Positions 37,045-54,449 of a DNA stretch of 64,000 nucleotides are shown in pieces; positions within the stretch are counted from its first letter, which is position 1; the number at the start of each line of letters is the position of its first letter. The stretch is from Planctomycetota bacterium (GTDB taxonomy: Bacteria; Planctomycetota; UBA1135; UBA2386): positions 62,001 through 126,000 of the forward strand of contig JANQJF010000044.1 in assembly GCA_028281765.1 (NCBI GenBank), in the 5' to 3' direction. A program made the position numbers and the translations under genes. Below the pieces are notes generated by a model. The model ran no database searches. It saw only the letters and a list, made by a program, of their open reading frames with translations, and was not told the DNA's origin.

Positions 37045-39048
37045 GTGCGCGTCTTCGTCGTTTCGAGCCTTCTCGCAGGAATCCTGATTGTCTTGGCATT
37101 CTGCCGAGACGATCGACCGGAGCTGCCCGCCGTAGACAGCGGCACCGTTGCCACGGACTCCGGTACCGCAGCAGCGGACTCAGGTCCTCCGGCCGAGATG
37201 ACGAGCGACGACGCCAAGGCGTCGCGCGCCGTCGTCGAAGCGAAGGGTCGCCTCGTCGGTCGCGTGCTGAGCGCCGGGAGTCGCCCCGTGAGCGGCGCGC
37301 GGGTCTTCTTCGAGACGAAGCGCAACTTCGCCGGCCCCGACATCCTCGCGCATCCGACCGGCGTCTCGACGCGGTTGGCCAAGCTGCCGCAGACGAAGAC
37401 GAACGAAGCCGGCGAGTTCGAGATCCCTGCCACGGAACGCGGACAGCTGCTGGTCGTCGCCGAAGGCCACGTCGGCACGCGCGTCGCGACGCCCGCGACG
37501 GCAGGGCGGCGCTTCGAGGTCGAAGACGTCGTGCTCGAGCCGCGGGGACAGGTGTCCGGCATCGTCGTCGACCCGACCGGGGCACCGATCGCCGGCGCCG
37601 CGGTGCAGGTCGCGAGGAGCGATCGCCCGATCGTCGGCCGCGCGAACGACAACGCCGCTCGCACCGCCGCGGATGGTCGCTTCGCCGTCGCGGGCAGCGG
37701 CGACGGGGAGGAGCTCATCCTGATCGCGGATCATCCGGATCACGCGCCGGGGCGCGCGAGCTGCCAGATGCCCGGCACGTTCGAGCGTGTCGACGGCATC
37801 GAGATCCGACTCGGCAAATCCACGACGATCCAAGGCACGGTGACGAACGCCAGTGCGCACGCACGCGGCGTTCTGCGGGTCGAGGCGTTTCCACAGCGCG
37901 GCCGCAGCCTCTCATTGCGCCATCAGCGCCACCTCGCAGAGGTCGAAGAAGACGGATCCTTCGTCGTCCAAGGGCTGATCGAGGGGTTGGAGTACAACCT
38001 CCGGGTCGTCCGAGACGGTGACTCAGGACTCCGGATACTGAAACGAGTCATCGGGCCGATCGTTCAAGCGACGAGCGGCGCGAGCGACGTCGAGCTGTTG
38101 GCCCTGCCGCCCGTGCGTGTCCGGTTTCGCCTCGGCACCTCGCAGCTCATCCGCTCGGCGCGCGCGCACGCCGCGGTCGAGAAGCGGGGACGCGCCGCGT
38201 ACGGCGGCCTCCTGAACGCGCGCGCGAGACGCGTGTCCGCAGACGCATCCGGAGTGTTCGAGATCTCCGTCCAGCCGACGGACCAGGAGATGCAGCTCGC
38301 ACTCGGTGTCGCCGCTCCCGGCTTCGCCCCCGTGTTCCGCACAGGCCTGCAGGTTCCCGAAGATGGCATCGTCGACGCGGGCGTGCTCGCGCTCGAACCG
38401 CGGCCCACGCTGCAGATCCGCGTGCGTGACTCGGACGGCACACCGGTTCCCGACGCCCGTCTCCGCATCGCGCAATCGGATCGCGATCGAAGAGCCGGTT
38501 CGACCTTCATCGACACGAGCACCGCCGAAGACGTCGTGCGCCACGCGGTCGTCCCGGACGAGGCCTTCGCGGAAGCACAAAGCGACGACAGCGGACTCGC
38601 CGTGCTGACATTCGATCATGCCGGCCACGCGTGTGACGTCTTCGTCTCGCACCGGGGCTTCGCGATCACCGAGCTGAAGTCGATCGAGATGCCTGCCGTC
38701 GGAGAAGCCGTCGAAACGACGGCCGTTCTCGTTCGCGGCGCTACCGCACGAGTCGAAGTGACGGACGCCGACGGAAAGCCGGTCGGAGGCGTCAAGGTCG
38801 CGGGCGGGCTCGTCGAAGAGGGATCGAGGACCAAGAGCAAGGAGACCGACGCCGCCGGAGTCGCCGTCTTCGCACAGCTTCGCGCAGGCGAATACGTGTT
38901 CACCGTCACCGACGCACGCTACCCGAAGGAGGCGAGCGCTGCTGTGTCACGCGCGGCGCGCCTCGAAGGCCAGACCGACCCATCCGCGCGACGGATCCAG
39001 ATCGACGGTCGATCGGATGAAGTCACAACCGTGCGACTCCGCCGCTGA
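37045..39048 (+). CDS. Membrane-anchored protein with carboxypeptidase-regulatory-like domains
   Basis: 667 aa from a GTG at 37045; a CATGAT hexamer ends 6 nt before it. The N-terminal hydrophobic segment VVSSLLAGILIVLAFC may be a lipoprotein signal (Cys20) or an anchor. An Asp/Ser/Thr linker follows. The rest is a string of about five to six beta-sandwiches of the CarboxypepD_reg/transthyretin-like type, recognised by GRVLSAGSRPVSGARV, GIVVDPTGAPIAGAAV, VRDSDGTPVPDARL and VTDADGKPVGGVKV. These domains usually act as binding or stalk modules. The sigma fusion at 41126 and the giant protein at 51018 share them. Confidence 0.75.
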   Translation: MRVFVVSSLLAGILIVLAFCRDDRPELPAVDSGTVATDSGTAAADSGPPAEMTSDDAKASRAVVEAKGRLVGRVLSAGSRPVSGARVFFETKRNFAGPDILAHPTGVSTRLAKLPQTKTNEAGEFEIPATERGQLLVVAEGHVGTRVATPATAGRRFEVEDVVLEPRGQVSGIVVDPTGAPIAGAAVQVARSDRPIVGRANDNAARTAADGRFAVAGSGDGEELILIADHPDHAPGRASCQMPGTFERVDGIEIRLGKSTTIQGTVTNASAHARGVLRVEAFPQRGRSLSLRHQRHLAEVEEDGSFVVQGLIEGLEYNLRVVRDGDSGLRILKRVIGPIVQATSGASDVELLALPPVRVRFRLGTSQLIRSARAHAAVEKRGRAAYGGLLNARARRVSADASGVFEISVQPTDQEMQLALGVAAPGFAPVFRTGLQVPEDGIVDAGVLALEPRPTLQIRVRDSDGTPVPDARLRIAQSDRDRRAGSTFIDTSTAEDVVRHAVVPDEAFAEAQSDDSGLAVLTFDHAGHACDVFVSHRGFAITELKSIEMPAVGEAVETTAVLVRGATARVEVTDADGKPVGGVKVAGGLVEEGSRTKSKETDAAGVAVFAQLRAGEYVFTVTDARYPKEASAAVSRAARLEGQTDPSARRIQIDGRSDEVTTVRLRR

Positions 39049-39086: not shown

Positions 39087-41063
39087 ATGCGTCCCATCTT
39101 CGCGATCGTCGCCACTCTCGCCTGCCTCCCGCCCGTCACGGCCCAACGCAAGTTCCACCCGGACAAGGCCGTTCAGAAGGGTTGCGACGTCCTGCTCGAG
39201 ATGCAGGAGGGTTCGACGAAAGGCCAGTGGCCGTACGAAGGCGTCTACCGCGTCGGTGGACAGATCCCGGTCGGCTACCACGTCGGCGGCACCTCGATCT
39301 GCGCGCGCGCGATCCTCGAGGCGCCGGGCTACGAGCAGAGCAAAGAACGTCGCGCCGCGGTGAAGCGCGCGCTCGAGTTCGTCCTCGAGGAACTCGAGGT
39401 CCCGCTCATGGCGTCGGGCTTCAAGGGCGGCTACGACGTGCGCGGCTGGGGCCACACCTACGCGCTGATCTTCTTGCTCCGGCTGCACGAACTCGGCGTC
39501 GTACCGACCGGACTCGAGAAACGCGTCGCGGAGAAGACCAAGTGGCTCGTCGACACGCTCGTCGAGACCGAGATTCGCGACGGCGGCGGCTGGAACTACT
39601 CGCGTCGCCGCGGCCCGTCTTCGGCAGCATCCCCATTCATGACTGCGCCGACGCTACAGGCTTTGTTCCGCGCGATCGCGAACGGCCACTCGGTCGACGA
39701 GAGCGTGATCGAGCGCGCGCTCGACGCGCTCGACCGCGGCCGAACCAAGTCCGGCGGCTACAAGTACTCACACGGCGCGCAGTCGGCGAACAAGATCCCC
39801 GAGAAGAAGCTGCGCTTCATGGACGTGCAGCTCGGCGCCGTCGGCCGCATGGTCGTCACCGAAGCGACGCTGATGCTCGCCGGCCGCGGCGACGAGAAGC
39901 GCCTCGCCAAGTCGGTCGACGCGTTCTTCAAGCACTGGCAACACCTCAAGGATCGCAAGCAGCAGCACGGCACCCACATCCCGCCGGGCGGCGTCGCGCC
40001 GTACTACTTCATGTTCGCGCATCGCTACGCGGCGCAAGCGATCTCGATGCTGCCCGCGAGCAAGCGCAAGAAGCAGCACCGCAAGCTCGTGAAGACGCTC
40101 GCGAAGGAAGTCGAGAAGAACGGCGGCTGGAACGACCGCGTATTCGACCGTTCGCGCAACTACGGCACGGCGTTCGGCATGCTCGCGCTGCTGCAGCCCG
40201 ACCTGACGCCGGTGCCGAGCTGGCGCCCGGGCATGGCGGCTGCCTCCGACGCGATGATCGGTAGCTGGCAGGGCATGGACGGCGGACCGCTGCTCCACAT
40301 CGAAAAGGAGCGGGTGTTCCTCTACGAAAGCGACGAGCTGAAGATCCAGCGCGCGGCGGTGCAGCCCGCGTCGATCACGACGTGGCGCGGCGCCGCGGAG
40401 GCGAAATGGCAGGTCAAGGTCGACGGCGACTCGCTCGTCCTCACGCGAGACGGGGCCACCCAGCTCCTGCAACGCGTCGAGCAACGCCCCGCGAAGCTCA
40501 TCGTGACTCCGCTCGAATTGGGCACGGGACAACCCGCCGAAGACGCGATCCCCGCGATCCGGGAACAGCTCCGGGAACGCGTCGAAAAGGACCAAGCGGT
40601 CCGCGACCGAGCGACCGCGAAGGAAGCAACGGAGGAAGACCGCGCCGAGATGCGCGCGGTCGACCGAGACAACACGCAGTGGCTCCGCGGCAAGGTCGCT
40701 GAGTTCGGCTGGCTGGACGTGGCGCGCTTCGGCCGCAAGGCCTCCGACAACGCGTTCTTGCTCGTGCAGCACAGCGGCGACCGGGAGCTGATGCTCGGCG
40801 TCATCGACAAGATCGAAGCCGACGTCAAAAACGGCGAACTCGAGGGCGACGCGTTCTGCCTGCTCTACGACCGCCTGCAGGGATACCTCGGCAAGAAGCA
40901 GCTCTACGGCTCGCAGCTCTCTCAACTCGGCAACGAACTCGTGCTGCTGCCGATCGAGGATCCGGACGGCGTCGAGGCGCGGCGCAAGGAGTTCGGGATG
41001 CAGCCGCTGAGTGGGTATCTGAAGCTGGTGGAGAAGGCGTACGGGAAGAAGGTGCGGCGGTGA
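39087..41063 (+). CDS. Secreted alpha/alpha-toroid protein (squalene cyclase/prenyltransferase repeat type)
   Basis: 658 aa. The signal peptide ends at PPVTAQ (residue 20). Residues 25-390 carry the repeats of the terpenoid cyclase/prenyltransferase toroid: KGQWPYEG, FKGGYDVRGWGHTYALIFLL, RDGGGWNYSRRRG and KNGGWNDRVFDRSRNYGTAF. Cyclase catalytic DxDD or VxDCTA motifs are not visible, and the protein is exported, so it is not a hopanoid cyclase. It may be a scaffold or a protease-inhibitor-like module. The C-terminal 260 residues are charged helices of unknown family. A TACCAT hexamer (39075-39080) ends 6 nt before the ATG, a leaderless arrangement. Confidence 0.75.
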   Translation: MRPIFAIVATLACLPPVTAQRKFHPDKAVQKGCDVLLEMQEGSTKGQWPYEGVYRVGGQIPVGYHVGGTSICARAILEAPGYEQSKERRAAVKRALEFVLEELEVPLMASGFKGGYDVRGWGHTYALIFLLRLHELGVVPTGLEKRVAEKTKWLVDTLVETEIRDGGGWNYSRRRGPSSAASPFMTAPTLQALFRAIANGHSVDESVIERALDALDRGRTKSGGYKYSHGAQSANKIPEKKLRFMDVQLGAVGRMVVTEATLMLAGRGDEKRLAKSVDAFFKHWQHLKDRKQQHGTHIPPGGVAPYYFMFAHRYAAQAISMLPASKRKKQHRKLVKTLAKEVEKNGGWNDRVFDRSRNYGTAFGMLALLQPDLTPVPSWRPGMAAASDAMIGSWQGMDGGPLLHIEKERVFLYESDELKIQRAAVQPASITTWRGAAEAKWQVKVDGDSLVLTRDGATQLLQRVEQRPAKLIVTPLELGTGQPAEDAIPAIREQLRERVEKDQAVRDRATAKEATEEDRAEMRAVDRDNTQWLRGKVAEFGWLDVARFGRKASDNAFLLVQHSGDRELMLGVIDKIEADVKNGELEGDAFCLLYDRLQGYLGKKQLYGSQLSQLGNELVLLPIEDPDGVEARRKEFGMQPLSGYLKLVEKAYGKKVRR

Positions 41064-41125
41064 GGCAGCGCGAAAATCGCACCTGACCTGAGGCCGATTT
41101 CGCCGTCACGGCATGCAACCCTGTG

Positions 41126-43630
41126 ATGACGACGACCGACCCGGCTGCGATTCAACCCGAAGACCTGCTGCGCCACGCGGGTGCGCTCCGGGCGCTCGCG
41201 CACCGACTCGTCGAGAATCGCGATGATGCCGAGAGCTTGGTGCAGGAGACGTTGGTTCGAGCTCTGGAGCACCGGCCGCGCGCAGGGCATGGACTTGCCG
41301 CGTGGCTCGGCCAAGTGTTGCAGAACGAGGCACGTCAGGAGAGACGAGCCGCGGAGAGGCGTGCCGCCAACGAAGCCAGAGCCGCTCAGCCGAACGAGTC
41401 GCCGGCTGCGGCGGACGTCGCGGCGCAGCTCGCCACGCAGCGGCGCCTGCTGGAAGCCGTGGAATCCCTGGAGCCGATCTACCGCGATGTGGTGTTCATG
41501 CGCTGGTTCGAGGATCTGCCTCCCCGCAAGATCGCCGCGCGCCTCGGGGTTCCGACGAACACGGTGAAGACCCGCCTCGAACGCGCGCACGCCCGACTGC
41601 GCGCACGCCTCGAGTCCGTCTACCGCGACCGACACGAGTCGTGGGCGACGGCGCTCGCTGCCATCGCACTCCCGGCTCGGTCGAAGTCACTGCCCCTACT
41701 CTTGACAGCTGGAGCCGTGATGAACCTGAAGTTTCTCGTCCCCGCAGTCGCGGGAATCACCGCCTTGGGAATGCTCGCGTTTTGGTCGGACGGCGGCGCC
41801 GCCGACTCGAACCCGATCCCTGACGCCGGCCCCACCGCGCCCGCGACCGCACGGATGGGCGAGCCGGAAACGCATCCGGAGCACGACCCGATCCGCGAGC
41901 ACGTCCCGCTCGACACGAGCGACGTCGCGGCAGGGATTCGCGACGACGCGATCGGTCCGCGAATTCGCGGGCGCGTGTTCGACGCCGCAGGCACTCCACA
42001 GGCCGGGATCGATCTGCAGTTCGTCCCCCAGGTCCCGTCACCTGGCGACCGACGAGTTCTCGCGACGAGTGACGCGAATGGACATTTCGAGATGGCCAAG
42101 CCGAGCGGTTCGGGCATGGTCTTCACGGCGTCCGAGAACTGGACGACGCTTCTCGCGGGAGAGCCGGGACCGGATACCTCCGTGATCGTCGTCGTCGCCA
42201 GCGCTCGACGGACGGCCGGATTGGTCGTCGATGCTCGCACGGACCAACCGGTCGGCGACGCGACGGTTACAGTCCGAATGCCCGAGGGCTTCCGGGCGCG
42301 ATTCCCACAGCCACTCGACAACACCGCGGATCAAACATGGACCGCGACGACGAACGCGGACGGCCGCTTCACATCGGAAGGGATTCCGGCCATCGCGGGT
42401 TGTCGCGTCACCGCCGAGCACGACGGCTATCTCGACACGAGCCGAGTGATGGGCCTCGAAGAGCGCGAGCTTCGCTTCGAACTCGTGCCTGCGGACGAGG
42501 TGACCTCGATCGCCGGCGTCGTGCTCGACGCTGCGGGTGAAACTGTCGCGAATGCGCGCGTCGCGCTCGGTCGACAACCCACGCGCACGGATGCGCAGGG
42601 AGGATTCGAACTGGTCGTCGAGGGCCCGAGCCCCGATCGGCTCACCGCAGTCGCCCTTGGATGGCAACCGAAGGTGATCGAGCGCACCTCGCAGCCGGCC
42701 ACCGAGTGGCCCGACTGGATCGAGGTTCGGTTGACGGACACTCCGGAGTCGATCCGCGGACGCGTTCTTCGAGCCGACGGTAGACCACACGACTCGGCAG
42801 AGGTCTGGGTGCACGATCCGACATACTTCGCGCAACAAGGCACGCTCGCCCTCTCGGCCGAACGAGAGATGCACACGACACAGGAACTCTGGCAACGCGT
42901 CACGACCGACGATCACGGGGAGTTCTCGATACCCGGACTCCTCGCGCGCGAGTACGAGGTCCGTGCGGTCGACCTGCGCACTCTCGAGCAAGTGCACGTT
43001 CGCGGCGTTCGAGCCGGCGGCGCGGGGATCGAGCTCCGATTCTCGGCCGATGGCGTGCTTCCCCGACTGGAGGGTCGCATCGTCGACAGCCGCGGCCAGC
43101 CCGTACCGGAAGTCGACGTTCAGTTGACCGCCCACGGCTTCATATACGGGGCAGGCCAACCCGGCGCGATGAACTACGTTTGTCCTGCGAGAGGGCCCCA
43201 AGCCACCAGCGACTCGAACGGCGTATTCGAGTTCGAGAATGTCACGCGACGCGCGTACCAACTCGGCTTCGGATTCAGCTCTGAGAGAGTGCTGACCGGT
43301 GGCTTCACGTTCGTTGACGGGCTCGCCGTGTCTCCGATCGAGGTCGTGGTGCAGTTGCGGTGTCGCGTGCGCGTCGACGTCTCCGGGTCCGACCTGGAAG
43401 CCGCGACAAAAGTGCGGTTCGTCGACGCGCGCGACGAGCCGGTCGCGTTCGAACGAGCGACGGCAAAAAGGACCTACATCGAGAAGTCCACCTACTTGAG
43501 CGGTGGAAAGTCCGAGTTCCTGACCCTTCCCGACACCGCGTGCGAAGCGGTGTTCGAGCTCGATGGAATCGAACGAGGTCGACGACCGGTGCGGCCGGAT
43601 CCGAATTCGACCGTGATCGTGCGCCCGTGA
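41126..43630 (+). CDS. ECF sigma factor fused through one membrane helix to extracellular beta-sandwich domains
   Basis: 834 aa (a GTG at 41123 is also possible). Sigma-70 region 2 lies near residues 15-75 (ENRDDAESLVQETLVRALEH) and region 4 near 115-165 (YRDVVFMRWFEDLPPRKIAA then RLGVPTNTVKTRLERAHARL). A single hydrophobic helix, NLKFLVPAVAGITALGMLAF, follows at 201-220. After an acidic Pro-rich linker, 580 residues form several carboxypeptidase-regulatory-like domains outside the cell (RIRGRVFDAAGTPQAGIDL, SIAGVVLDAAGETVANARV, IRGRVLRADGRPHDSAEV). No anti-sigma gene is adjacent. Either the sigma part is released by proteolysis on a signal or it works at the membrane. Confidence 0.88.
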   Translation: MTTTDPAAIQPEDLLRHAGALRALAHRLVENRDDAESLVQETLVRALEHRPRAGHGLAAWLGQVLQNEARQERRAAERRAANEARAAQPNESPAAADVAAQLATQRRLLEAVESLEPIYRDVVFMRWFEDLPPRKIAARLGVPTNTVKTRLERAHARLRARLESVYRDRHESWATALAAIALPARSKSLPLLLTAGAVMNLKFLVPAVAGITALGMLAFWSDGGAADSNPIPDAGPTAPATARMGEPETHPEHDPIREHVPLDTSDVAAGIRDDAIGPRIRGRVFDAAGTPQAGIDLQFVPQVPSPGDRRVLATSDANGHFEMAKPSGSGMVFTASENWTTLLAGEPGPDTSVIVVVASARRTAGLVVDARTDQPVGDATVTVRMPEGFRARFPQPLDNTADQTWTATTNADGRFTSEGIPAIAGCRVTAEHDGYLDTSRVMGLEERELRFELVPADEVTSIAGVVLDAAGETVANARVALGRQPTRTDAQGGFELVVEGPSPDRLTAVALGWQPKVIERTSQPATEWPDWIEVRLTDTPESIRGRVLRADGRPHDSAEVWVHDPTYFAQQGTLALSAEREMHTTQELWQRVTTDDHGEFSIPGLLAREYEVRAVDLRTLEQVHVRGVRAGGAGIELRFSADGVLPRLEGRIVDSRGQPVPEVDVQLTAHGFIYGAGQPGAMNYVCPARGPQATSDSNGVFEFENVTRRAYQLGFGFSSERVLTGGFTFVDGLAVSPIEVVVQLRCRVRVDVSGSDLEAATKVRFVDARDEPVAFERATAKRTYIEKSTYLSGGKSEFLTLPDTACEAVFELDGIERGRRPVRPDPNSTVIVRP

Positions 43631-46021: not shown

Positions 46022-49000
46022 ATGCGCGCTGCGGCCCTCGCGATTTCCCTGCCGGCCCTCGGTGCCCTCGTCGGCGCCCAGGAACCGATCGATTACCAGC
46101 GGGACGTTCGACCGATCCTCTCGGACAACTGCTACCAGTGCCACGGACCCGACGGCAACGAGCGGAAAGCGGGGCTAAGGCTCGACGTGCGCGAAGCCGC
46201 GCTGCGTGAGCTGCCGTCCGGCGAGCGCGCGATCGTCCCGAACGATCCCGACGCGAGTGCCCTTCTGCAGCGGGTGCACGCGAGCGATCCGGACGTGCAC
46301 ATGCCACCGCCGAAGAGCGGCAAAGATCTGACCGATGCGCAGCGCGCGACGCTGCGGCGATGGATCGAGCAGGGCGCGGAGTTCACGCAGCACTGGTCGT
46401 TCGTGGCGCCGAAGCGTGCGGCATTGCCTCAGGTGCGCGACATCGAGTGGTGTCGCAACGAGATCGACCGGTTCGTGCTCGCGCCGCTCGAGACGGACGG
46501 CATGCGACCGAAGGCCCAGACCTCGCGGGAACGCCTGCTGCGCCGCGTTACGTTCGACCTGACCGGTTTGCCGCCGACCGTTGCTGAGGTCGAAGCCTTC
46601 TTGGCCGACGAGCGACCCGATGCGTACGACCGCGTCGTCGACCGGCTGCTCGCGTCGCCGCACTTCGGCGAGCACCGCGCGCGCTTCTGGCTCGACGCCG
46701 CGCGCTACGGCGACACGCACGGCTTCCACCTCGACAACTACCGCTCGATGTGGCCGTACCGCGACCACGTGATTCGCGCGTTCAACGCCAACCAGCCGTT
46801 CGACGAGTTCACGGTCGAACAGCTCGCGGGCGACCTGCTGCCGAAGCCCACGCTCGAGCAGCAGATCGCGACGGGCTTCAACCGCTGCAACCCGACGACG
46901 GCCGAGGGCGGACTCATCGCCGCCGAGTATCTCGCCCACTACGCCGCGGACCGCGTCGAGACGACGTCCACGGTCTGGCTCGGACTGACCGTTGGCTGCG
47001 CGCGCTGCCACGACCACAAGTTCGATCCGATTTCGACTCGCGACTTCTACCGCATGTTCGCGTTCTTCAACTCGATCGAGGAGAACGCGAGCGACCGCAA
47101 CATCCCGACACCCGCTCCGGTCATCGCCGCGCCGACCGAGGAGCAGAAGAAGGAACGCGAGCGCCTGAACAAGGCAAGCACGGCGATCGCCGAGCGGATG
47201 CGCGCGCCGATGCCCGACGTCGACCGACGCCAGCGGCTGTGGGAAGAAGAGTGGGCGATCTTCTCCGGTCGCAGCTGGAGCGAGCTCGTGCCGACGTCCG
47301 CGGTGTCCCGCGGCGGCGCGACGATGCAGCTGGGGAAGGACAACACGGTGCTCGCGACGGGCTTCTCCCCCGCGAACGACGTCTACGAAGTCGTGCTGCG
47401 CAGCGACGCGAAAGACCTCCGCGCGCTGCGCATCGAAGCTCTGGCACACGCGGAATCTCCCGGCAAGGGAGTCGGTCGCGCTTCGCACAACAACATCGTG
47501 CTGACCGACATCTCGGTCGAGGCGGCGCCGGCCACGCGACCGCTCGACGCGAAGCCCGTCGCGCTCGCCTCGGCCTGCGCCGACTGGAACCAACCGAACT
47601 TCCCGATTCAAAACGCCCTGGACGGCAAGCCCGCGACCGGATGGGCGATCGACAACGGGGACAGTGACGACCGCACGGTCATCGTCGCCGCCGCGCAGCC
47701 ATTCGGCTTCGACGGTGGCACAATCGTGCGCATGCGTCTCGGATTCGAGTCGCAGTACGCGCAGCACACGATCGGCAAGCTCCGGATCTCCGCGAGCAGC
47801 GAGGACCGCGTCTTGCCCGCCGTCCTCGGCAACTGGGAAGTCTCGAACCACATCCCGGCGAAGAACCGCACGGCCGCGTATGCGCTGTCGCCGACGAGCC
47901 CCGAGGCGAATGGTACCGCGTGGACCGAGCGACCCGAGTTCGTCGACGGCAAGGTGCACAGCCTGCCGGCCGGGCTCGGCGCAACCTTCTTGCGCCGCAC
48001 GATCGAGTCGCCGAGTGACCGCGATCTGCACGTCACGCTCGGCAGCGACGACAGCATTCGCGTGTTCTTGAACGGTGAAGCCGTGTTCGAACGCGAGGTC
48101 GCACGCCCGGTCGCACTCGACCAGGACCGCGTGACGCTGCGACTTGCCGAAGGGAACAACCAGCTGGTGCTCGCGGTCGCGGACTACGGCGGCGGCCACG
48201 GCGTGGCGTTCCGCGTCGTGGGCGAGGACGTCCTTGGCATCCCGAACGCGGTCGCGCGAGTCCTGAACAAGCCCGACACACAGCGCAGCAAGGCCGAGCT
48301 CGCGGCGGTCCGCGACCACTACCGTCGCAGCGAGTCCCCCGAGTGGCGCGAGCTCGACGATCGGCGCAAGGCGATCGCAACCGAACTCGCCGCACTCGAC
48401 AAGGCGATCCCGCGCACGCTCGTCATGCGCGAGCGCAAGGAGCCGCGCCCCGCGCACATCCTGCTGCGCGGGAAGTACGACCAGCTCGGTGAGAAGGTCG
48501 ACCCGGGTGTCCCCGCGGCGCTACCGCCGCTCCCGACCAAGGATCGCGCCTCGCGCCTCGACCTCGCCCGCTGGCTCGTCGACCCGAACCACCCGCTGAC
48601 CGCCCGCGTCACGGTCAACCGCTTCTGGCAGAGCCTGTTCGGCCGCGGCCTCGTCGCGACGCCCGAAGACTTCGGCTCGCAGGGCCAATGGCCGAGCCAC
48701 CCCGAGCTGCTCGATTGGCTAGCACGCGAATTCGTCGAGAGCAGTTGGGACGTGAAGCACATGTTCCGCACGATGGTGACGTCCTCGACCTATCGCCAAG
48801 CCAGCGAGGCTTCGCCAGCGGACTACGCCAAGGACCCCGACAACATTCGCCTCGCGCGGGGTCCGCGCTTCCGCCTCGGCGCGGAGAGCATCCGCGACCA
48901 GGCCCTCGCCGCGGGCGGCCTGCTCGTGCGCGACATCGGCGGCCCGAGCGTCAAACCCTACCAGCCCAAGGGGCTCTGGCGTGCCGTCGGATACACCTCG

Positions 49001-49501
49001 AGCAACACGGCACGCTTCACGCGCGACACCGGCGAGAAGCTTTACCGCCGCAGCCTCTACACGTTCTGGAAGCGAACGTCGCCCCCGCCGTCGATGCAGA
49101 CCTTCGACGCGCCGACGCGCGAAGCCTGCCGCGTGTCGCGCGCGCGCACCAACACGCCGCTCCAAGCCCTCGTGCTGCTCAACGACGTGCAGTTCGTCGA
49201 GGCCGCGCGCGGATTCGCGGTGCGGATCCTCCGCGACGGTGGCGCGACGTTGCAGGACCGCATCGCGTTCGCGTTCCGCACCGTCACGGCACGCGCGCCG
49301 AACGAACGCGAGCAGCCGGTGCTGCTCGACGCGATCGAACGGCAGCTGTCCGAGTACGAACCGGACGAAAAGGCGGCACGGAAACTGATCACGTTCGGCG
49401 AGTCCAAGCCGCCGGATGACCTGAGGCCGACCGAGCTCGCCGCGTGGACGGCGTTCGCGGGCATGCTGCTCAACCTCGACGAAGCGATCACGAAGGGCTG
49501 A
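46022..49501 (+). CDS. PSD1 cytochrome (PSCyt1 + DUF1549 + DUF1553) secreted protein
   Basis: 1159 aa. The signal peptide ends at ALVGAQ (residue 20). PSCyt1 haem motif CYQCH at Cys37-His41, with the paired block [17 protein letters not shown]1549 runs from about 140 to 345 ([49 protein letters not shown]). The central 350 residues include a beta-rich discoidin- or PA14-like insert. DUF1553 closes the protein ([40 protein letters not shown]). The family is planctomycete-specific and is thought to act with its DUF1501 partner in periplasmic polysaccharide or redox metabolism. The partner follows 4 nt after the stop. Confidence 0.93.
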
Positions 49502-49505
49502 CGTG

Positions 49506-50963
49506 ATGGACCCACGACTCGACTACCGCCGCCTGCTCACCCGCCGCAACTTCTTCGCCCGCTCGGCGACCGGCGTCGGCGCCGCCGCGCTCGGCTCGCT
49601 GCTCTCGCGCGACGGGCTCGCGATGCCCTTCGATAAGGGCGGAGGCGGCGTGCTCGCCGCTCCCCACCACCCGCCGACCGCGAAGCGCGTCATCTATCTG
49701 TTCATGTCCGGCGCGCCGTCGCAGATGGACATGTGGGACTACAAGCCCAAGATGCGCGAGTACTTCGACAAGGACATGCCCGACTCGGTAGTGAACGGTC
49801 AGCGCTTCACGACGATGACGTCCGGGCAAGCGCGCTTCCCTATCGCGCCGTCTGTCTTCGACTTCGCGCAGCACGGGCAAGCCGGCACGTGGGTCAGTGA
49901 GCTACTGCCGTACACCGCACAGGTCGTCGACAAGCTCGCGGTGATCCGCTCCCTGCACACCGAAGCGATCAACCACGACCCCGGCATCACGTTCTTCAAC
50001 AGTGGTCACGAGCAGCCGGGACGCCCGAGCATGGGCGCCTGGATGTCATACGGACTCGGTAGCGAGAACGCCGACCTGCCGACGTTCGTCGTGCTGCACT
50101 CGAGCTGGAGCGCGAAGCGCGACGCGCAGGCGCTCTACTCACGCCTCTGGGGGTCGGGCTTCTTGTCGTCGAAGCACCAGGGCGTGTCGCTGCGCTCGGA
50201 CGGCGACCCGGTGCTCTACCTGTCGAACCCGCCGGGCACGTCGCCCCAGGCGCGCCGCCAGGCGCTCGACGCCCTCGCGCAACTCAACCAGCAGCAATAC
50301 GAGTCCGTCGGGGATCCGGAGATCCTCGCGCGCATCTCGCAGTACGAGATGGCGTACCGCATGCAGACTTCGGTGCCCGATCTCACCGACTTCTCCGACG
50401 AACCCGAGCACGTGCTCGAGATGTACGGCCCCGACGTGCGCAAGCCCGGCACGTTCGCCGCGAACTGCGTCCTCGCGCGCAGGCTCGCCGAGCGCGACGT
50501 CCGCTTCGTCCAGGTCTACATCCGCGGCTGGGACCAGCATGGCAACCTGCCGGCCGACATCCGGCGCCAGTGTGGCGACGTCGACCAACCGTGCGCCGCG
50601 CTGATCCGCGACCTCGAGCAGCGCGGCCTCCTCGAAGACACGCTCGTCGTCTGGGCGAGCGAGTTCGGGCGCACGACGTACTGCCAGGGTCGACTCACGG
50701 AGACGAACTACGGCCGGGATCACCACCCGCGCTGCTTCACCGTCTGGATGGCCGGCGGCGGCATCCGCGGCGGCGTCAACCTCGGGGAGACGGACGACTT
50801 CAGCTACAACATCGTCCGCGATCCGGTGCACGTCCACGACCTCAACGCCACGATCCTGCACTGCCTCGGGGTCGACCACGAACGGCTGACGCACCGGTAC
50901 CAGGGGCGGGAGTTCCGGCTGACGGACGTGCACGGCCACGTGGTTCGCAGCGTGCTGGCGTAA
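49506..50963 (+). CDS. DUF1501 protein, Tat-exported, partner of the PSD1 cytochrome
   Basis: 485 aa from the ATG at 49506 (a GTG at 49503 is in frame). The Tat signal is visible: [20 protein letters not shown]. The body has the sulfatase/alkaline-phosphatase-like fold of DUF1501: [49 protein letters not shown] and [19 protein letters not shown]. Metal ligands of true sulfatases are not all evident. It is translated right behind PSD1 and presumably works in the same periplasmic system. The substrate is unknown. Confidence 0.92.
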
Positions 50964-51017: not shown

Positions 51018-54000
51018 ATGCGCACGCCTGCGATCCTGCTGCTGCTCGCCGCCGCTCTCGCGGCGGTGCTCTGGGTCTGCTGGTCTCCGGACCCGGCCGA
51101 CGCGCTGCCGACCGCCACGCCGGACGGCGGCGTCCCGAGCACCGAGTCCACGACCGACGAGCAGGAGAGCGACGAGGAACCGGATCGCGTCGCGGTCGCC
51201 GAGACCGACCCGCTGGCCGGCGGGGCGGACGCCGCGGAGCCGATCGAACTGCGCGGCTCCCTCCTGCTCGACAAGCGGGCTGGTATCGGCGCCCGTATCG
51301 ACAGCGCCGAAGTGCTCGCCTACGCCGGCGACCCGCGCGACGAGAAGCTCGACTTCTCACGGCTGATGGACCAGGCCGCGCTCGAAACCGGCCACAACCA
51401 CGACCTCGCGCTCGACGGCGAGCCCATCGCGCGCGCACACGTCGAACCCGACGGCCACTTCGCGCTGCAGCTGCCCGGCACGCGCGACGTGCGACTGCAT
51501 CTGGATCACCATTTCTACAAGCTCACCGGCACCCTGCCGGTCCACGTGTCGAAGCACGCAAACGAGCATGACACCGGCCCCCTCGAGGTCGTGTTCGGTG
51601 GCCACATTCTCGGACGTCTCGTCGGCAGCGAACCGGTGGAAGGCGCGACGGTCCGGCTCGTGTCCGACGTCGATCCGATGTCGGTGCTCTCGGAGCCGCA
51701 GATGTTCATCGCGCACATCCTGCAAGGCGGCCACACGGACACCGATCTGGCCAGTGATGGCACGTTCGAGTTCCGCGCCGTCACGCCGTCCCCCAACATC
51801 ACGCTGAGCTCGAGCGACGGGGACCTGCTCGCGCGTAGCGACCGCGTCGGCGTCGGCGCGGGAGAAACCCGCGAAGTCCTGCTCCGCGCGGTTCCGACCG
51901 GGACGATCGCGGTGCGCGTCCACACTCTCGAAGGCGAGCCCATCCCCGACGTCCGCGTGCGCGCGATCCCCCTCGACGCCGTCGGCGAAACCACGCGCGC
52001 GCTGCTCACGAAGACGGCCTGGTCCGACGAAAACGGCGACGCCGCGATCCGTGGGGCGAAGGTCGGCGACTACCGCGTCATCGTCAAGCCGAGCGACTTC
52101 CGCCCAGCCAGCCAGGACGTGACGGTCGGCATCGACGCCGGCCCTCCTCTCGAGTTTCGACTCGACCCGGGCGGCATCATCCGCGGCCGCGTCGTCGACA
52201 AAACCGGCGCACCGATCGAGAACGCCGGCGTCGCGCTGCAGCACGTTCTCGAGATTCCGATGCTGGGTGAAACCGCCGACCTCGTCGGTGCCGACCTCTA
52301 CGCGAAGGCGGCGATCCACTCGGACCGACGCTCCGACGCGGAGGGCCGATTCGAGATCGCCGGCGTGCCCCGTGACGAGCCCGTCCACATCTCGGCCGCG
52401 CACGAGGACTACGCGCCGGGACTCGCCAAGTCTGCGCGCGCCGGCGACGAGCTGACGATCGAACTGTCGCGCCTCGCGGAGATCCGCGGCCGCGTCGTGG
52501 ATCGCGCCACGGGAGAACCGATCCCGACGTTCACCGCACGCACGGTGACGTCGATGATGATGTTCATCGAGCGCTCGACGCGGATGGTCGAAGTCCGAGA
52601 CTCCGAGGACGGCGCGTTCTCCATGCGAGGCGTCTCTCCGAGCAAGACGAACTTCGTGATCGATGCCGAGGGCTACGGGTCGCATCAGCAGCGCATCGCG
52701 ACGACCGAAGCCCAGGTTCTCGACCTCGGCACGATCGAGCTGGATCCCGCAGCTCGGATTCTCGGCCGCGTCCTGTCGCCGAGCGGCGAACCGGTCGCCG
52801 GCGCCACCGTGACGCAGCGGCGCGGTGGCCTGATGGACAACCCGGTCGTGCAGCAGTTTTTCGGGCGCGGGTCCGTGCGCTCGGATGCCGACGGCAACTT
52901 CGAGCTGATCGATATCCGCCCGGGCGGCGTGCGACTCCGCGCAACGGCGCGCGGCTACGCGTCGGCGGACAGCAAGCGGCTCAAGGTCCGCCGCGGCGAA
53001 GTCGTGAGCGGGATCGACCTACACCTCACGGAGGGCGGCAGCATTGCGGGCCGAGTCCTGCTGCCGCGCGGCCGATCGCACGAAGGCTGGGAGATCATCG
53101 CGACGATGGAACCGAGCGGCGCGATGGGCACGACGGCCCTGCAAGCAGACGGCACATTCCGCATCGACGCCCTCGACCCTGGCGGCTACCAGGTGCAGGC
53201 GATGGACGTGCGGTCGTTCGACAACATCAATCTCGAGGTGATGAGCGCAACCGAGCTCGGGAAGATGCCGGACGTCGGTGCGCTGATCCGCGCGACTCAG
53301 GATCTCGCCGTCAATACGCGCGTGCGCGTGCGCGCCGGCGAGACGACGGAAGTCGAACTCGACGCGAGCGACTTCGACGCCGACGGCATCCGCCTCGTCG
53401 GCGAGCTGACGCTCGGGGGCGCGCCGCTCGACTCCGGCCTGATCGAGGTGCAGGCGGTTCGCGGTGAGCAGCCGCGCATCTCCCAGGCGTTCATCCAGGA
53501 CGGCGCGTTCGAGATCCACCGACTGCGCCCGGGCGTCGTCCGCCTCCAGCTGCGCAGCGGCCTGACCATGAACCCGGTCGGCGACCCCAAGACGGTCGAA
53601 ATCGTCGAGAACAAGAGCACCCAACGCGTGTCGTGGAGCCTCCCCGGCGGCCGGATCGCGGGCCGAGTCATCGACGACATGACTGGAGACCCGATCCTCG
53701 GCGCGGCGATCAAACTGCAGCGCGACGACGAAGCCGGCGGCGCACCGATCGACTTCGGGTTCTCGCTGACCGACGCCGAGGGCAAGTTCGCGTTCGAGGG
53801 ACTCCGCGCCGGCACGTTCACCGTCATCGCGGACAGCGGTCTGAGCGCGGGCAAGGACAGCAGCGGCCGCCTCGAGGGGCTCCGCCTCGGTTCCGGCGAG
53901 ACGCTCGCCGATCTCGAGCTGCGCGCGCAACCGGGCGCCGGACTCGAGGTGCGCGTGCACGACACGACGGGCCGCCCGGTGTCCCGCGCGCTCGTCATCG

Positions 54001-54449
54001 CCGTCGACGGTGAGGGCCAGCCGATCGGGACGCTACCGATCGCGATGACCAATGCCGAAGGCTCGGCGTGGATCGCCGGCCTGCCCGCCGGCAAGACCCG
54101 CGCGGTCGTGCGCCATGACGGCTTCGCCCCCGCATTCTCGGAGCTCCGCACGCTCGAGGCCGCAGCGCGAGCACAGCTGCAAGTCACGCTCCAGAAGGGC
54201 ACCGCCGTCGAGCTCGAAATCCACGACGCCGACGGCAACCCCCTCGCGGGGGCCTCGGTGTCCGTGCGCTGGGGTGAGTCGCCGTGGATTCCGGCGTCGC
54301 TCTTCGGCACGGCGACCGGCAGCACGATCGACCTCGGCCAGCTTCCCTCGGGGCGTTGCGAGTTCATGGTGTCGCACCCGCGGGTGAGCTTCACGACGAC
54401 CAAGTCGATCGTGAGCGGACGCCGCGTGAGCCTCGTGCTGCTCCCCTGA
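51018..54449 (+). CDS. Giant extracellular protein of carboxypeptidase-regulatory-like repeats
   Basis: 1143 aa from the ATG at 51018; a TTG at 50973 is less likely since AGGA lies 8 nt before the ATG. The N-terminal helix TPAILLLLAAALAAVLWVCW is a signal or anchor, followed by an acidic Ser/Thr/Asp linker. About ten beta-sandwich domains of CarboxypepD_reg type follow; repeat starts include IIRGRVVDKTGAPIENAGVA, EIRGRVVDRATGEPIPTF, ILGRVLSPSGEPVAGATV and RIAGRVIDDMTGDPILGA. No catalytic domain is seen. It is a probable surface stalk or binding protein and resembles the outer part of the sigma fusion at 41126. Confidence 0.8.
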   Translation: MRTPAILLLLAAALAAVLWVCWSPDPADALPTATPDGGVPSTESTTDEQESDEEPDRVAVAETDPLAGGADAAEPIELRGSLLLDKRAGIGARIDSAEVLAYAGDPRDEKLDFSRLMDQAALETGHNHDLALDGEPIARAHVEPDGHFALQLPGTRDVRLHLDHHFYKLTGTLPVHVSKHANEHDTGPLEVVFGGHILGRLVGSEPVEGATVRLVSDVDPMSVLSEPQMFIAHILQGGHTDTDLASDGTFEFRAVTPSPNITLSSSDGDLLARSDRVGVGAGETREVLLRAVPTGTIAVRVHTLEGEPIPDVRVRAIPLDAVGETTRALLTKTAWSDENGDAAIRGAKVGDYRVIVKPSDFRPASQDVTVGIDAGPPLEFRLDPGGIIRGRVVDKTGAPIENAGVALQHVLEIPMLGETADLVGADLYAKAAIHSDRRSDAEGRFEIAGVPRDEPVHISAAHEDYAPGLAKSARAGDELTIELSRLAEIRGRVVDRATGEPIPTFTARTVTSMMMFIERSTRMVEVRDSEDGAFSMRGVSPSKTNFVIDAEGYGSHQQRIATTEAQVLDLGTIELDPAARILGRVLSPSGEPVAGATVTQRRGGLMDNPVVQQFFGRGSVRSDADGNFELIDIRPGGVRLRATARGYASADSKRLKVRRGEVVSGIDLHLTEGGSIAGRVLLPRGRSHEGWEIIATMEPSGAMGTTALQADGTFRIDALDPGGYQVQAMDVRSFDNINLEVMSATELGKMPDVGALIRATQDLAVNTRVRVRAGETTEVELDASDFDADGIRLVGELTLGGAPLDSGLIEVQAVRGEQPRISQAFIQDGAFEIHRLRPGVVRLQLRSGLTMNPVGDPKTVEIVENKSTQRVSWSLPGGRIAGRVIDDMTGDPILGAAIKLQRDDEAGGAPIDFGFSLTDAEGKFAFEGLRAGTFTVIADSGLSAGKDSSGRLEGLRLGSGETLADLELRAQPGAGLEVRVHDTTGRPVSRALVIAVDGEGQPIGTLPIAMTNAEGSAWIAGLPAGKTRAVVRHDGFAPAFSELRTLEAAARAQLQVTLQKGTAVELEIHDADGNPLAGASVSVRWGESPWIPASLFGTATGSTIDLGQLPSGRCEFMVSHPRVSFTTTKSIVSGRRVSLVLLP

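Follow-up and report, generated by a model that had tools for sequence, protein, structure and literature searches.

The gene at 41126-43630 on the forward strand of the 64,000-nucleotide stretch of planctomycete DNA analysed here (the window) encodes, in one uninterrupted frame, an ECF sigma factor, a single membrane helix and a long array of outer beta-sandwich domains. Our main reading, which we hold with a probability of about two in three, is that it belongs to a phylum-wide class of sigma-receptor genes, present in tens of copies per genome, many of which carry a selected internal Shine-Dalgarno (SD) sequence that would give rise to a second protein, the ratio of the two products tuning sensing and a common promoter allowing auto- or cross-regulation. 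The more specific picture of a membrane-tethered ECF family in which one gene yields two proteins, a latent sigma-receptor that is released by cleavage and a receptor devoid of sigma, is favoured slightly less firmly. Many ECF sigma factors of planctomycetes have no anti-sigma gene, and the family suggests a way in which they may be controlled, by a sensor that forms part of the sigma chain itself. A hidden second product of this kind escapes standard annotation and, if the reading is true, a single such gene would by itself make up a signal transduction system, decoy or co-receptor included.

Architecture, family and gene neighbourhood

The frame runs without an internal stop from the ATG at 41126, or from the alternative start GTG at 41123, to 43630, and the long form that it encodes (sigma, helix and receptor) has 834 residues. 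Using Pfam, we located sigma-70 region 2 (PF04542, Sigma70_r2) at 41171-41359 (residues 16-78, 8e-9), sigma-70 region 4 with its helix-turn-helix (PF08281, Sigma70_r4_2) at 41441-41596 (residues 106-157, 2e-11) and five stretches of CarboxypepD_reg over the C-terminal part (7e-35). By the presence of regions 2 and 4 in its sequence, the product is an ECF sigma factor. Region 4 is followed by a short conserved linker helix of the G..R..W..L.P type (41633-41668); a tryptophan lies at most 20 residues from region 4 in 153/178 family members. The single membrane helix, FLVPAVAGITALGMLAF (41732-41782), was recognised by hydropathy, flanking charges and an AlphaFold helix, and corresponds to residues 203-219, the only strongly hydrophobic helix of the chain. 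Beyond it, a disordered juxtamembrane linker rich in acidic residues, proline and alanine (41783-41956; pLDDT below 50) leads to an extracytoplasmic array of carboxypeptidase-regulatory-like or Ig-like beta-sandwiches of about 555 residues (41960-43627), detected by Pfam, AlphaFold and Foldseek. The linker is variable, and its family composition is 17% alanine, 12.5% proline and 17% aspartate plus glutamate.

The AlphaFold model of the window protein, built from a 53-row alignment (pLDDT 82.8), places the sigma helices at residues 11-166, the extra linker helix at 170-181, the membrane helix at 205-220, disorder up to about residue 275 and the beta domains at 279-834. In Foldseek comparisons the sigma part resembles SigH and SigL of Mycobacterium tuberculosis, as seen in initiation complexes (about 30% identity). 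The outer part matches multi-domain Ig-like pilins and adhesins. The initial annotation had described ECF regions 2 and 4, one hydrophobic helix and outer beta-sandwiches in a single chain, a layout on which Pfam, hydropathy and AlphaFold agree. The charges around the helix likewise fit its picture of a sigma part in the cytosol and a sensor outside: the window helix has N-in/C-out flanks, the family mean net charge is +1.5 before the helix and -1.6 after it, and the N side is the more positive flank in 157/178 members, so that the N-in/C-out topology of the fused proteins is supported, by charge only.

The own genome of the window contains 111 matches, of which about 60 are intact fused genes, and we assembled a family set of 178 distinct fused genes, drawn from 54 genera (21 family codes), all within the phylum; the fused architecture recurs throughout the order and in many of the phylum's other families. 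Both sigma regions were found by Pfam in 53/53 scanned members and CarboxypepD_reg in 47/53, and the main hydrophobic helix lies 16-63 residues past region 4 in the extended set, with one outlier at 5. Regions 2 and 4 keep conserved residues among the paralogues; binding to core RNA polymerase and initiation at promoters of its own would be expected of an ECF factor. A frameshift joining two genes, named in the initial annotation as what would undo its proposal, was tested: about 60 own-genome paralogues and more than 100 foreign genes have the same layout in one frame, and the single frame in all 178 genes rules out such a fused-gene artefact. One further gene, at L081:1982 onward, encodes sigma, linker and helix with an AMKK start motif, and its frame stops 71 residues past region 4; it may be a truncated member, a sequencing error or a short variant. 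At another locus (L005/L006, G000:C99:56723-60897), two fused genes are arranged head to head with about 200 nt between them, possibly with a divergent promoter region in common, and a third is found about 5 kb away.

As the initial annotation had noted, no anti-sigma gene adjoins the window gene. Its upstream neighbour on the same strand (39087-41063), ending 62 nt 5' of the sigma gene, encodes a signal-peptide protein with a C-terminal DUF6624 domain, and downstream an FG-GAP protein is encoded on the opposite strand. The DUF6624 gene is a possible operon partner of the sigma gene and was not seen beside other family members. None of the zf-HC2 anti-sigma genes of the own genome adjoins a fused gene by coordinates; they mostly adjoin ordinary short ECF genes. 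At five loci (L091, L085, L088, L082 and L089), ordinary short ECF genes are followed by zf-HC2 genes, some with long C-terminal parts, and such loci are possible ancestors of the fusion. Within the fused chains, the linker between sigma part and helix (median 34 residues) has a zinc-finger H-x3-C-x2-C in 0/178 members and holds no recognisable anti-sigma domain, and a FecR domain is absent from the window gene and from the leading Pfam families of the 53 scanned members.

The genes at 37045-39048 and 51018-54449 (the latter likely starting at ATG 51018) encode receptor-only proteins with an N-terminal anchor, an acidic linker and CarboxypepD_reg arrays, and closely resemble the short form predicted below. 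Pfam bears out the outer domains that the initial annotation had assigned to both; its suggestion that they are partners or targets of the sigma gene found no support, because the fused genes have no recurring family of neighbours, and the two are therefore tied to the sigma gene by common domain type alone. We found no conserved partner gene beside the fused genes: the largest recurrent neighbour cluster comprises six loci and is kinase-like. These kinase-like genes, Hanks-type by eye (near L092, L012, L058, L027, L099 and L016), are the sole neighbour family seen in more than three loci. The PSCyt1-PSCyt2-PSD1 protein and the DUF1501 protein encoded one after the other at 46022-50963 in the window form a pairing typical of planctomycetes, and such genes point to a planctomycete origin of the DNA.

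Selection on an internal start codon

A GGAG at 41711-41714 is followed, 5 nt further on, by an in-frame ATG (Met199; 41720-41722), the DNA of the window gene at this point reading ctGGAGccgtgATGaacctgaag. Initiation here would give a predicted short form of 636 residues (41720-43630), made of anchor and receptor without sigma. In many members a methionine and then a lysine (M-x-x-K) stand directly before the helix, a pattern resembling the N terminus of a secreted protein. In paralogues such as L008 and L061 the SD is GGAGG.

We counted a site wherever an in-frame ATG, GTG or TTG was preceded, 4-11 nt upstream, by GGAG in the 18-codon segment before the helix, and compared the counts with a null model in which codons were resampled among synonyms of the same gene (1000 trials). 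The internal SD and start occur in 74/178 genes, where resampling predicts 16.3±3.5 (maximum 28). The excess holds for the own genome (23/64 against 5.3±2.0) as well as for other genomes (23/53 against 5.2±1.9), and the site occurs in 13 of the 23 genes fetched last, nearly all from other families, for which shifted segments give 0-2; other or neighbouring 18-codon segments along the same genes give 0-6. At position -4, glycine is encoded by GGA in 30/34 cases, compared with 17% overall and with 20/196 at two other conserved glycine positions (p=4e-20). By these counts the signal resides in the codons and not in the protein, and the internal start is shown statistically to be under evolutionary selection. 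The GGAG-plus-start is absent from 104/178 genes, and the short form is therefore not universal.

The single continuous chain proposed in the initial annotation stands as far as the gene is concerned, but its picture of one chain per gene is probably incomplete, having overlooked the size of the family, the selected internal start, which would yield a receptor without sigma, and the upstream motif described below. At their own 5' starts, which are approximate, GGAG was found in 10/116 fused genes, against 74/178 at the internal site. The planctomycete phylum is reported to have a small fraction of SD genes, with signs of leaderless mRNA or RPS1-dependent initiation (PMC5397173). Ten separate genes in other genomes are receptor-only homologues; most of these open with basic residues followed by a single helix, which places their start where that of the internal product would be, and no sigma open reading frame was found near them in the stretches fetched. 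As such separate receptor-only genes exist, the short unit is, judged from sequence, autonomous.

An alternative is that only one chain is made and released by proteolysis, the GGAG and start being the unused relic of an operon of two genes, a sigma gene and an overlapping receptor gene. The second gene of an operon would be expected to have just such an SD, receptor-only genes do exist and the site is missing from more than half of the family, all of which a relic would explain; nevertheless, the members that bear the SD share a mean sigma-domain identity of about 40%, and over such divergence a relic would have decayed, while the GGA preference is confined to the SD glycine and leaves the other conserved glycines at background. 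A relic should also cluster on the sigma tree, whereas SD presence does not (56 changes against 56.7±3.3 in shuffles), and the SD therefore turns over fast; the low identity and the scatter on the tree together speak against a passive relic. Split sigma and receptor gene pairs that could be ancestors were searched for and none was found. We regard the relic as unlikely. Still less credence, and indeed very little, is given to the idea that GGAG is a ribosome pause element aiding insertion of the helix. Its position directly before the first membrane helix would suit this role, but pausing requires no start codon, and methionine occupies the start position in 37/85 cases compared with 11/670 at equal distance from GGA|G elsewhere. 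In addition, valine at the start position after GGA|G is encoded by GTG in 19/19 cases (background 38%), and such replacement of ATG by GTG or TTG speaks for initiation rather than for pausing, as does the SD-start spacing, the mode of which is 8 nt, that of initiation.

Upstream motif and proposed signalling

Using expectation-maximisation from random starts on the regions upstream of fused genes, we obtained a promoter-like motif common to them, TGAA.CG.ATCC....C..GCGGCAT, typically 40-60 nt before the start, with a log-likelihood gain of 510-582 against 145-183 in shuffles. The top-scoring site in the window, TGAggCCGATTtcgCCGTCACGGCAT (41089-41114, forward strand; 17.3 bits), lies directly 5' of the start of the sigma gene. 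When trained only on other genomes, the motif was found at 10 bits before 22% of own-genome fused genes; the controls gave 0.7% (neighbour genes) and 1.1% (random stretches). The own-genome motif is somewhat different from the family motif, with a GGAATTCCTGA core. The promoter motif is diffuse, and a genome-wide search for targets with a strict pattern gave five matches against two on the backwards control. On sequence grounds, the motif is probably the family promoter, recognised by the family's own sigma factors, and its presence throughout the family suggests auto- or cross-regulation.

We therefore picture, as a proposal, a long form with a cytoplasmic sigma part, one membrane helix and an outer beta-sandwich receptor, the anchoring of which would hold sigma latent at the membrane, and a short form, begun at the SD and start codon before the helix, which would be an anchored receptor without sigma. 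We infer that both forms are made in cells. A signal at the receptor would lead to cleavage beside or inside the membrane by a site-1 and an RseP-type protease, freeing the sigma part, which would then direct transcription of its targets, probably including its own gene or sister genes by way of the upstream motif that they have in common. As a co-receptor, a decoy or a separate surface protein, the short form would determine what fraction of the receptors is linked to sigma. Cleavage beside the membrane, already put forward in the initial annotation, is plausible by analogy with IutY (PMC8999054, PMC5411451). An M50 site-2 protease is present in the own genome and M50 is also present in all 14 control genomes, and for this reason it lends little weight to cleavage; a juxtamembrane D[AS]G is a weak candidate signal (12/117 against 1-5 elsewhere).

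The sigma part could instead be active while bound to the membrane, in the one-component manner of ToxR or CadC, which would make cleavage unnecessary. No conserved cleavage motif was found in the family, and the juxtamembrane linker is variable and disordered, as this model would allow; but a sigma factor has to travel with core polymerase and touch two elements of a promoter, something difficult to do at the membrane, and IutY, the nearest counterpart among the systems studied, undergoes cleavage (PMC8999054, PMC5411451). We judge activity at the membrane to be improbable, a shade more so than the relic discussed above. The receptor array might, on the other hand, serve mostly at the surface or as a structural protein, with the short form as the main product and the attached sigma merely reporting its own export. 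The likeness of the arrays to pilins and adhesins, the receptor-only genes and the roughly 60 divergent outer parts per genome lean this way, whereas the lack of the internal start in many members does not, and we put the chance of this about as low as that of the relic. Release of a latent sigma factor by cleavage, alongside a receptor without sigma, remains our preferred reading.

Relation to known systems

The tethered fusion of a sigma factor to an outer part is a type already known, from IutY and from ECF52 proteins such as SCO4117 (PMC8999054). IutY of Pseudomonas putida is an ECF243 sigma/anti-sigma hybrid which is cleaved by Prc and RseP (PMC8999054, PMC5411451). Like members of the present family, it combines in a single polypeptide an ECF sigma part, one transmembrane segment and a C-terminal part outside the cytoplasm, and it has no separate anti-sigma gene. 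By contrast, its periplasmic anti-sigma part is coupled to the IutA outer-membrane receptor in an iron system, whereas here the outer part is an array of beta-sandwiches, an internal start is carried, no partner gene is conserved and the paralogues, about 60, are far more numerous per genome than in the IutY and ECF52 cases; the FecR-like anti-sigma part and the TonB-dependent receptor partner of the IutY type were not found in the present family. Searched by terms, the IutY paper yielded no mention of an internal start.

In the ECF52, ECF48 and ECF53 groups of Actinobacteria (SCO4117; PMC8999054, PMC5826349), a transmembrane helix likewise joins sigma to an outer part, possibly ligand-binding, but these proteins have a zinc-finger anti-sigma domain where the present family has its short linker of about 34 residues. 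Like the present genes, those of the ECF57 group (PMC8999054) extend the ECF sigma part by a long C-terminal region and lack an anti-sigma gene; WD40-like repeats in the extension set that group apart. The SigI/RsgI systems of cellulolytic clostridia (PMC6056542, PMC12203970) resemble the family in having many paralogous sigma factors per genome, each with its own outer sensor, and RseP cleavage in the pathway; there, sigma and sensor are separate proteins. The ECF57 group also has a planctomycete link.

An internal in-frame start that gives a second, functional C-terminal protein is described for RpnL/RpnS (PMC10327210) and Cas11b (PMC11899642), which are neither sigma factors nor receptors. 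The literature searched, which lay outside the main ECF classification papers, contained no report of an internal start in a sigma factor. A selected internal start within a sigma-receptor gene thus appears to be new, set in a type of tethered sigma factor for which IutY and ECF52 are the precedents.
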